Origin: Rhodoluna sp.
Lineage (GTDB): Bacteria; Actinomycetota; Actinomycetes; Actinomycetales; Microbacteriaceae
Direction: 5' to 3'
Assembly: GCA_024641095.1 (NCBI GenBank)
Contig: JAHEDR010000001.1
Location: forward strand, 1 to 64,000
DNA: 64,000 nt
A program made the position numbers and the translations under genes. Positions 30,782 to 36,009 of this stretch are shown in pieces; within the stretch, counting starts at the first letter, position 1, and each line of letters begins with the position of its first letter. A model generated the notes under the pieces. The model was not told where the DNA came from. It saw only the letters and a list, made by a program, of their open reading frames with translations, and did no database searches.

Positions 30782-31427
30782 CTGGACCCTTTGTATTGAC
30801 ACCTCTGCCGGAACAACCGTGGCCGTGCTGCAGGGTGGCGAGGTGCGCAGCGAAATTCATTTTCCAGAGAGCATGAAGCACGCGGAGCGAATTGGTGATG
30901 CCATTGCCCAGTGCATCGCAAACGCTCAGATTGCACCAGGCCAAATTACAAATGTTGTGGTTGGTCGCGGCCCGGCACCGTTCACCGGCCTACGCATTGG
31001 TATTGCAGCTGCCGTGATGTTTGCCGAGGGCGCAGGGGCACAGCTGTTTGGCGTAAGTAGCCTTGACGCAATTGCCAAGGCGGCACTTGATAAGCAAACC
31101 GATAGCAAACTTCCGCTGCTGATCACTGCCGATGCTCGCCGCAGCGAGAACTACTGGGCGCTTTATTCGGGCCAGACCAAGAACGGTGCACCGGTTTTGA
31201 TTAAAGGTCCCGGGGTTGCCAAGCCAGATGCTCTGGCAGAAAAATTCGCCGGACAAAAACTTGCACACACCGATATCAAAATCAATGCCGTAGACCTGGG
31301 CAAAGTTTTTGAAGCACAGCTTTTAGATGGCACAGCGTCGCACAACGTTGAAGCAATGTACTTGCGCGAAGCTGATGCGGTTGCACCAAAGGTGCTGCGT
31401 GATTTTGGCAAGAAGGTTTCCGGATGA
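30768..31427 (+). CDS. tsaB: tRNA threonylcarbamoyladenosine biosynthesis protein TsaB
   Basis: [33 protein letters not shown]; neighbourhood. Met at 30774 is an alternative start. Confidence 0.9.
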
Positions 31428-32950
31428 GCGCCGCGTACCTAATTCGCGAGGCAACCGAGGCCGACCTTGCACAGATCATGGACCTCGAGAACGATTGCTT
31501 TGGCAATGATGCCTGGGATCAAGACACCATGCACTTTGAGGTAGTTGCCCACCACACTTATTACATAGCCGCGTTTGATAAGGCTGCCGTCAACGAGACG
31601 TTAATCGGGTACGCAGGCCTAAGCAAGATTCCTGGCAACGAGCAGGCCGATATTCAAACCATTGCGGTTGCCGAATCGGCACGCGGCAAAGGCATTGGTA
31701 AGGCTCTGATGCAAGAGCTACTCAAGGAGGCTCGTCGTTTGCAGGCCGAAGAGCTATTTCTTGAGGTTCGTGCCGATAACCCAGCGGCACAGAACCTTTA
31801 CTTAGCTCTTGGTTTTGAACACATTGATACCCGTAAGCGTTACTACCAACCAGACGATGTTGATGCTTGGGTAATGCGTTTGCAGTTTGCCCGCAGCACA
31901 ACCGGCCGCGAACCTATTGTGCTTGGCATTGAAACTTCTTGCGATGAAACCGGCATTGGCATTGTGCGCGGCAACACCCTGCTTGCCAACATAATTTCTT
32001 CTTCAATGGAGGAGCACGCCAGATTTGGTGGAGTGGTGCCAGAGATTGCGGCACGCGCTCACCTTGAGGCATTGCGCCCAACTTTGCATCAGGCACTGGC
32101 CAAGGCAAATTTGTCTCTAAAAGATATTGATGCCATTGCAGTTACCAATGGCCCTGGTCTTGGTGGTGCGCTGATGGTTGGTGTTGGTGCGGCAAAGGCG
32201 CTTAGCGTTGCACTCGAGAAACCTATTTATGCGGTGAATCACCTGGTGGGTCACGTGGGCGTAGATATTTTGGAACGCGGCCAACTAGAAACTCCAACCG
32301 TTGCACTCTTGGTTAGCGGTGGCCACACCTCGCTACTCTTGGTGCGCGACCTGCTTGACGATGTTGAGCTGCTTGGTGAAACAATCGATGACGCAGCCGG
32401 CGAGGCCTTTGACAAAATTGCCCGCGTACTTGGTTTGAAATATCCGGGTGGACCAGAAATTGATAAAGCTGCAGTCGGCGGAGACCCAAAGGCAATTCGT
32501 TTCCCGCGCGGACTGACTCTGCCAAAAGACATGGAAAAGCACCGCTACGATTTCTCGTTCTCTGGGCTCAAGACCGCGGTAGCTCGCTGGGTAGAAAAAG
32601 CAGAAGCTGCTGGCGAAGAAATTAATGTTGCGGATGTTGCCGCTTCGTTCCGCGAGGCAGTTGCCGACGTGCTGGTGACCAAGGCCGTGAATGCCTGCCT
32701 TGATCACAAGGTGCCAAGACTGTTGCTTGGCGGAGGAGTAGTGGCCAACGCGCGCCTTCGCGAGCTGGCTCAGCAAAAGTGTGACGAGCACGGCATTGAA
32801 CTTAGAATTCCGGCACTTAGCCTGTGCACCGATAACGGGGCGATGATTGCGGCCCTTGGCGCGCAGCTGATCATGGCTGGCCGAGCACCGTCTAGCTTGC
32901 ACTTTGGAGCAGACTCAACGCTGCCAGTTACCTCGGTGCAAACACACTAG
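31424..32950 (+). CDS. Fusion protein: RimI-like GNAT N-acetyltransferase + TsaD
   Basis: One uninterrupted 508-aa frame: [21 protein letters not shown]...[14 protein letters not shown] (GNAT) joined by a short linker to [17 protein letters not shown]...NHLVGHV...[10 protein letters not shown] (TsaD). Confidence 0.93.
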
Positions 32951-34697: not shown

Positions 34698-34724
34698 TTA
34701 GCACTCGGCTACATAGAGTGCTAA
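34698..34724. promoter_or_regulatory. CIRCE element (HrcA operator)
   Basis: TTAGCACTC-N9-GAGTGCTAA, exact match to the consensus, upstream of groES. Confidence 0.95.
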
Positions 34725-34764
34725 CATTGCAATACAAACCCCGCAACAAAAAGGAGAGGTCACT

Positions 34765-35061
34765 ATGTCGGTTTCAATCAAGCCGCTTGAAGATCGCATC
34801 GTTGTTCGCCCAGTTGAGGCAGAGCAGGTAACCGCATCTGGTCTAGTAATTCCAGACACCGCTAAAGAAAAGCCACAGGAAGCAGAAGTAATTGCTGTTG
34901 GTCCTGGCCGCGTAGACGACAAGGGTGTTCGCATTCCAGTTGACGTAAACGTTGGCGACAAGGTTATTTTCTCTAAGTACGGTGGCACCGAACTTAAGTT
35001 CAACGGTGAAGAGTACCTAGTACTTTCTGCTCGCGACGTTCTAGCAGTGGTAGTTCGCTAG
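34765..35061 (+). CDS. groES: Co-chaperonin GroES
   Basis: [51 protein letters not shown]. Confidence 0.97.
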
Positions 35062-35100
35062 ACACCAAATTCATTGCAAGTTGTTCGATAGGCTCGAGCA

Positions 35101-36009
35101 ATGAGTGCACAAAAAGACCCTGGCTTCGGCCGGGGTCTTTTTTATGGAGCGGGTGCCTACCTAATTTGGGGAAGCTTTCCGCTGATCATCACGATGCTTT
35201 CATTCGCATCGCCGCTAGAAGTTGTGACCTGGCGAATCGTTTTTGGTTTTATTGTGGCCGCGCTGCTAACCACCTTCACCAAGAGCTGGCCGGCAATCAC
35301 GCAGGTTTTCAAAGATAAGAACCAGATGAAGTGGATGGCGCTGGCCACCGCTTTTATTGCGGTGAACTGGATTGTTTACGTGATTGGTGTGCACACTCAC
35401 CAAACACTTGAAACTGCGCTTGGCTATTTCATTAATCCACTGGTCACCATTTTGCTGGCCGTGATATTCCTTGGTGAAAAACTCTCGAAGGCCCAGTGGA
35501 TTGCCACCGGGTTTGGAACCTTGGCGGTTTTGGTTTTGAGTTTTGACTACGGCCGCCTGCCGTGGATTGCGCTTTCGCTTGCTTTCTCATTTGGCATTTA
35601 CGGCCTGGCCAAAAACAAACTCGGCGGCAAGGTCACCGCAGTCAACTCCTTTGCAATTGAGTCTGGCCTCTTGTTTCCGCTGGCAATAATTCAGGCCATC
35701 GTGTTCCAGGCTTCGGGAATCGGACTGCAGTTTACCCAGCACGGTTTTTGGGGAAGTGCCGGTCTGGTCTTCTTTGGAGTTATGACGGCTATTCCACTCA
35801 TCATGTTTGGTACCGCGGCCAAGCTCTTGCCGCTTAGGTACATTGGGTTCATTCAATACATGACCCCGGTAATTCAGTTCTGCATAGCCTTCTTTGTTTT
35901 TGGTGAGCCAATGCCGGCAGCTCGATGGGCGGGATTTGCCCTGGTCTGGGCCGGTTTGGCCGTGCTGATTGTGGACGCAATCAAGGCCGGGCAGCGCAAA
36001 AAGGCCTAA
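35101..36009 (+). CDS. rarD: RarD-type EamA-family transporter
   Basis: GLFYGAGAYLIWGSFPLIITML, EVVTWRIVFGFIVA, ETALGYFINPLVTILLAVIFLGEKLSKAQW; 9-10 TM pattern. Confidence 0.87.
   Translation: MSAQKDPGFGRGLFYGAGAYLIWGSFPLIITMLSFASPLEVVTWRIVFGFIVAALLTTFTKSWPAITQVFKDKNQMKWMALATAFIAVNWIVYVIGVHTHQTLETALGYFINPLVTILLAVIFLGEKLSKAQWIATGFGTLAVLVLSFDYGRLPWIALSLAFSFGIYGLAKNKLGGKVTAVNSFAIESGLLFPLAIIQAIVFQASGIGLQFTQHGFWGSAGLVFFGVMTAIPLIMFGTAAKLLPLRYIGFIQYMTPVIQFCIAFFVFGEPMPAARWAGFALVWAGLAVLIVDAIKAGQRKKA
35111..35143. terminator. Near-ideal intrinsic terminator inside the rarD 5' coding region
   Basis: AAAAAGACCCTGGC-TTCG-GCCGGGGTCTTTTT(T): 14-bp stem (one G.U), TTCG tetraloop, six-T run; A-run on the other side. 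Confidence 0.85.

Follow-up and report, generated by a model that had tools for sequence, protein, structure and literature searches.

The window, a 64,000-nucleotide stretch of DNA from Rhodoluna sp., a small freshwater bacterium, carries the gene for the co-chaperonin GroES followed on the same strand by rarD, which codes for a membrane transporter of the EamA family (Table 1). Both gene products scored above the cut-offs of their respective family models; for RarD, which clears the curated cut-off of TIGR00688, the family models do not extend over residues 1-10. Upstream of groES we found a perfect match to the CIRCE operator, for which the chance expectation is 0.05 even allowing three mismatches, placing this gene in the HrcA/CIRCE regulon. 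groES stands as a single gene with its own terminator (34698-35143), and groEL is not directly downstream of it. Elsewhere in the window, a plus-strand ORF of 508 aa (31424-32950) resembles, judging by its translation, a fused RimI-type acetyltransferase and TsaD, the latter a protein of t6A synthesis.

Table 1. Features of the groES-rarD junction, with positions counted from the first nucleotide of the window
Feature	Position	Strand	Details
CIRCE operator (HrcA site), upstream of groES	34698..34724	+	perfect TTAGCACTC-N9-GAGTGCTAA, 0 mismatches
groES, 98-aa co-chaperonin	34765..35061	+	NF001530, 167.8 bits (cut-off 136); Cpn10
-10 element TAGGCT, predicted rarD leaderless promoter	35089..35094	+	6 nt before ATG
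rarD, EamA-family transporter, 302 aa	35101..36009	+	TIGR00688, 169.4 bits (cut-off 130.15), residues 12-266
rarD start codon ATG, predicted leaderless transcription start	35101..35103	+	ORF, relatives, promoter position
groES intrinsic terminator (predicted)	35111..35143	+	14-bp stem, TTCG loop, six-T run; rarD codons 4-15
terminator 5' arm	35111-35124	+	AAAAAGACCCTGGC
terminator loop	35125-35128	+	TTCG
terminator 3' arm	35129-35142	+	GCCGGGGTCTTTTT
terminator T run	35138-35143	+	six Ts

Re-examination of the sequence bore out the original prediction of a near-perfect intrinsic terminator inside the first 15 codons of rarD, together with its coordinates and base pairing. The stem starts 10 nt past the A of the rarD ATG and comprises 13 Watson-Crick pairs and one G-U pair. 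It shows the features of an intrinsic terminator, namely a stable, GC-rich stem with a short loop (14 bp, -22.0 kcal/mol) and an adjoining T run, with a T content matching that of the intergenic terminators of relatives. Folding of a 76-nt region yielded -32.1 kcal/mol (z = -3.6 against shuffles) and mainly displays the hairpin, the RNA before the stem being only 10 nt long. The same bases encode amino acids 4-14 of RarD, R-G-L-F-Y being encoded by GGGGTC TTTTTT AT from the G-rich 3' arm together with the U tract. The hairpin (35111-35142) is flanked by an A tract on its 5' side and a T tract on its 3' side, which makes minus-strand, i.e. bidirectional, termination conceivable; no closely convergent minus-strand gene was found at this position.

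The suggestion that the hairpin insulates heat-shock transcription of groES from rarD is well motivated by the perfect CIRCE element. We infer such a function from the layout of the junction and regard it as well supported that groES is insulated from rarD, with the hairpin keeping heat-shock transcription out of the latter gene. This part of the original prediction stands; what it overlooked is that rarD has a predicted leaderless promoter of its own upstream of the hairpin. In actinobacteria, a TANNNT element 6-7 nt before the start codon is a mark of leaderless genes, and the TAGGCT element has precisely this position with respect to the rarD ATG. In the window genome TANNNT precedes 8.8% of the genes at a gap of 6 nt, 4.8% at a gap of 7 nt and about 1% elsewhere (this and the other genome-wide statistics were computed on 464 kb of sequence from this genome of 1.2 Mb). 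A scan of the junction with the sigma-70 consensus, which does not cover actinobacterial TANNNT promoters, recovered no promoter.

To place the junction in its evolutionary context we searched for rarD in 149 relatives and 300 members of the family Microbacteriaceae and compared the junctions, of which 110 non-duplicate ones, all with groES directly upstream of rarD, were analysed. The gene order groES-terminator-rarD is kept across the family and a strong hairpin follows groES in every one of the 110 junctions. In 86 of these the terminator is intergenic, with the rarD promoter and start coming after it, whereas in 24, belonging to three genera (16 from Rhodoluna, six from g8 and two from g18), it lies inside rarD. 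Three other genomes (L106, L153 and L163) were dropped as coding forms, an ordinary leaderless GTG sitting after their hairpin. The hairpin is separated from the groES stop by a median of 14 nt in the intergenic and 16.5 nt in the coding forms; the window and its sister, with 49 nt, are unusual among the latter. Compared to L003, these two genomes (L001/L002) are longer by about 28 bases in the stretch from the groES stop to the hairpin, and the additional bases carry the TAGGCT promoter. The closest relative of the window is Rhodoluna sp. Ww405, whose RarD is 86% identical. On a RarD tree of 48 sequences, which does not distinguish gains from losses of the coding state, this state needs about five changes, at least three of them forced by well-supported branches.

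An alternative explanation for this overlap would be that RarD truly begins 3' of the hairpin and that the overlap is an annotation effect. In four relatives (L008, L009, L019 and L136) a TTG or GTG lies at the end of the hairpin or beyond it, in line with this view, but most of the coding relatives lack an in-frame start between the hairpin and the first transmembrane helix (TM1). In the window itself the stretch from the hairpin to the TM1 'WG' motif contains no in-frame ATG, GTG or TTG, which upholds the earlier claim that no downstream start keeps the first transmembrane helix. Moreover, 16 of the 24 coding genomes have a -10 element at a gap of 6-7 nt from the ATG or GTG upstream of the hairpin, and across a 30-nt range no other gap shows one in the coding genomes. 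Given the missing starts and the position of the promoter, we rejected a downstream start, which we consider very unlikely. A crude gene caller placed the first usable later start of rarD at ~35194; annotation tools may trim or ignore starts of this kind, as happened here.

The predicted leaderless promoter itself is widely retained: rarD is preceded by TANNNT at a gap of 6 or 7 nt in 84 of the 86 intergenic relatives and in 16 of the 24 coding ones, with the background at other gaps being absent in the coding set. In seven Rhodoluna genomes (L003, L004, L006, L008, L009, L019 and L136), which include the nearest relative L003, the groES stop falls within the rarD -10 element, its TAA or TAG giving the TA. 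In g8 the element (TATCGT) is embedded in the final codons of groES, whose stop is overlapped by the GTG of rarD; across g8 and g18 the overlap of the rarD start with this stop is 1 or 4 nt. The leaderless part is not universal, as eight of the 24 coding genomes are without TANNNT at either gap. Six of these are Rhodoluna genomes with a TTG or GTG start at the groES end, and those of g18 have a start sharing 4 nt with the groES stop. In these eight genomes translational coupling to groES is likely to take the place of the element, in keeping with the reported inability of TTG to serve mycobacteria as a leaderless start (PMC4633059). No leaderless promoter of rarD was found in L007, L010, L011, L015, L018 and L024, a Rhodoluna clade in which the start of rarD is seemingly a TTG that overlaps with the end of groES; L015 displays an additional GTG just past that end.

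We then compared the hairpin with what codon choice alone would generate. Among 20,000 synonymous recodings of rarD codons 3-15, drawn with the codon usage of the window genome, none was as stable as the native sequence (observed -22.6 kcal/mol; mean -8.8, sd 2.6, best -22.4 kcal/mol), and the hairpin region uses the rare CGG codon, which makes up 1% of the Arg codons. Using a cut-off of -14 kcal/mol or better, the 464 kb of sequence contains 25 strong terminators, of which the groES-rarD hairpin is the 11th by energy and the only one located where the reading frame of a gene extends upstream, open and with a start codon.

Further evidence came from covariation, the counts for which derive from small sets of related sequences registered by hand. 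In the main set, formed by the ten tetraloop coding forms of Rhodoluna, pairing is kept in 95.7% of the cells and both sides have changed in 7 of the 14 pairs. None of 500 shuffles reached the covariation score, and in slid controls pairing drops to 37-68%. The support is weaker in two further sets beyond this one: in a second Rhodoluna group the hairpin is longer and 94.4% paired, with weaker covariation, and in g8 one genome has replaced a G-C by an A-U pair, giving K to R and L to F. The recoding and covariation results together rule out a chance hairpin.

The peptides encoded by the hairpin vary across the coding forms (KDPGFGRGLF, KTPGLARGFS, KNPDLGRGSL and KDLGSGRGLL). Since the pairing covaries while the residues change, the hairpin RNA and not the encoded peptide is, as far as can be judged from the sequences, the object of selection. 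The converse proposal, that the hairpin is kept only via a conserved N-terminal peptide DPGFGRGLFYG, could draw on the similarity of RGLFYG to the TM1 start of the family. It is contradicted by the double substitutions that keep the pairing while altering the peptide, by the lack of any matching structure among the 20,000 recodings and by the presence of a similar, non-coding hairpin in 86 relatives. With residues varying and the family model beginning only at residue 12, we discarded protein constraint as an explanation and deem it exceedingly improbable. Conservation beyond codon needs, to which the original prediction had pointed as a check, is thus present in the relatives. We found none among them that has lost the hairpin while keeping the protein; the reverse, a changed protein with the hairpin kept, is what we observed. 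Together with the intergenic location of the terminator in most relatives, this bears out the view that the groES terminator became part of the coding start of rarD.

Coding and intergenic terminators do not differ significantly in T content (p = 0.69) or energy (p = 0.16), and the T runs of the coding forms are slightly longer (p = 0.03). As neither stem energy nor T content is significantly weaker in the coding forms, the terminator does not appear to have decayed, and we saw no sign of decay after it turned coding in these two measures. In two coding forms (L015 and L018) the T run is weak (TCTTCC), which counts against the terminator reading. On the whole, a dual use of the hairpin, as predicted terminator and as coding sequence, is strongly supported by these comparisons.

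In the coding form the predicted rarD promoter precedes the terminator, so that transcription of rarD from it would have to pass through the hairpin. The terminator thus lies between the predicted promoter and the rest of rarD, and attenuation of this gene is predicted from the layout. One version of this would be a translation-sensitive attenuator, in which ribosomes on the leaderless rarD mRNA, or those finishing groES, melt the hairpin such that rarD senses initiation or 70S availability. The hairpin starting so shortly after the A of the ATG, the overlap of the rarD start with the groES stop in g8 and g18 and the strong repression by E. coli ribosomes of terminators close behind a stop codon (PMC4824070) are all consistent with it. 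However, in E. coli such repression from an upstream stop codon ends beyond ~30 bp, a limit exceeded by the 49 nt in the window, and a terminator placed 30 bp past an AUG was still ~90% as efficient when translated, a loss of only ~10% (PMC4824070). By analogy, ribosome-driven antitermination so near the start is likely to be weak, which tells against the disruption by translating ribosomes originally envisaged; we view translation-driven antitermination as possible but not favoured, and a translation-sensitive attenuator as rather unlikely.

We instead propose, with good confidence, that an ancestral groES terminator was taken into the 5' end of rarD, where it still terminates, and that rarD is made by read-through from its predicted leaderless promoter. 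Under this proposal, HrcA/CIRCE-controlled groES transcripts would end at ~35141-35144, inside rarD codons 14-15, and a polymerase starting at the rarD ATG would meet the terminator at ~+42 to +48. If the E. coli figures hold, most rarD starts would abort as ~45-nt RNAs and expression would come via read-through, so that the level of rarD would be low and set by the read-through of the terminator. Induction of groES would drive polymerases across the rarD promoter and could lower rarD further.

The arrangement might have originated by a deletion joining the terminator to matching rarD codons, leaving a working protein. RarD TM1 usually opens with R-G-L-F-Y or S-G-L-F-Y, and it is these residues that the 3' arm of the terminator and its T run encode in both Rhodoluna and g8; in g18 the hairpin is just upstream of the motif. 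Because these bases encode normal TM1-opening residues, the fusion would be tolerated. In L009, L019 and L136 about 12-18 extra residues lie between the hairpin-coded residues and TM1; hence, the terminator there codes for an N-terminal extension rather than the TM1 start.

Whether the arrangement has a regulatory use can be viewed in two ways. It could be a product of neutral compaction, in which small intergenic deletions brought terminator and rarD together and the hairpin persists for the sake of groES alone, the overlap being a tolerated burden for rarD without regulatory use. The terminator behind groES in every genome examined, the genome size of just 1.2 Mb and the roughly five changes on the tree, by which the coding state comes and goes, speak for this. 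On the other hand, the genomes of g8 (3-4 Mb) and g18 (2.1-2.4 Mb) indicate that streamlining is not required, and the promoter kept upstream of the terminator makes rarD pay for every transcript; we put neutral compaction at somewhat short of an even chance. More tentatively, the three-layer overlap, with the groES stop in the -10 element, the start codon as transcription start and the terminator as codons 4-15, may have evolved repeatedly as a compact attenuator, in which rarD is set by read-through and falls upon groES induction through promoter occlusion and termination inside rarD.

Known kinds of elements, i.e. intrinsic terminators, leaderless genes and attenuators, cover each part of this arrangement. 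ORF-internal 3' ends of E. coli (PMC7815308) likewise feature GC-rich hairpins with a T run, some within ORFs; in contrast to these, the terminator here belongs to the upstream gene, supplies opening codons of the gene that follows and is conserved with covariation. A terminator engineered into the initial 100 bp of a plasmid-borne coding sequence (PMC4824070) has the same geometry, being ~30 bp past the AUG and still efficient in E. coli, but belongs to an artificial construct with a short ORF, whereas the rarD case is natural, conserved and concerns a predicted leaderless gene. Leader-peptide or ribosome-mediated attenuators such as that of bmrCD (PMC4191407) similarly limit a transporter gene by an early terminator; unlike them, rarD has no separate leader peptide or visible antiterminator, and the terminator is inside the regulated gene. 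rarD resembles leaderless actinobacterial genes (PMC4633059) in the predicted transcription start at an RTG with a -10 element 6-7 nt upstream, and differs in that the groES stop supplies the TA of this element in seven Rhodoluna genomes and in the terminator right after the start. Searches of the open-access literature turned up no description of a natural terminator that doubles as the beginning of the following gene's coding sequence.

The groES-rarD junction lends itself to testing how gene expression can proceed through a neighbour's terminator, and how strong an intrinsic terminator is at a distance of no more than 50 nt from a leaderless start. It represents a natural, conserved case in which the transcription terminator of one gene doubles as protein-coding sequence of the next, and in which compensatory base changes alter both of the encoded amino acids, such that selection at the level of the RNA visibly overrides that at the level of the protein.
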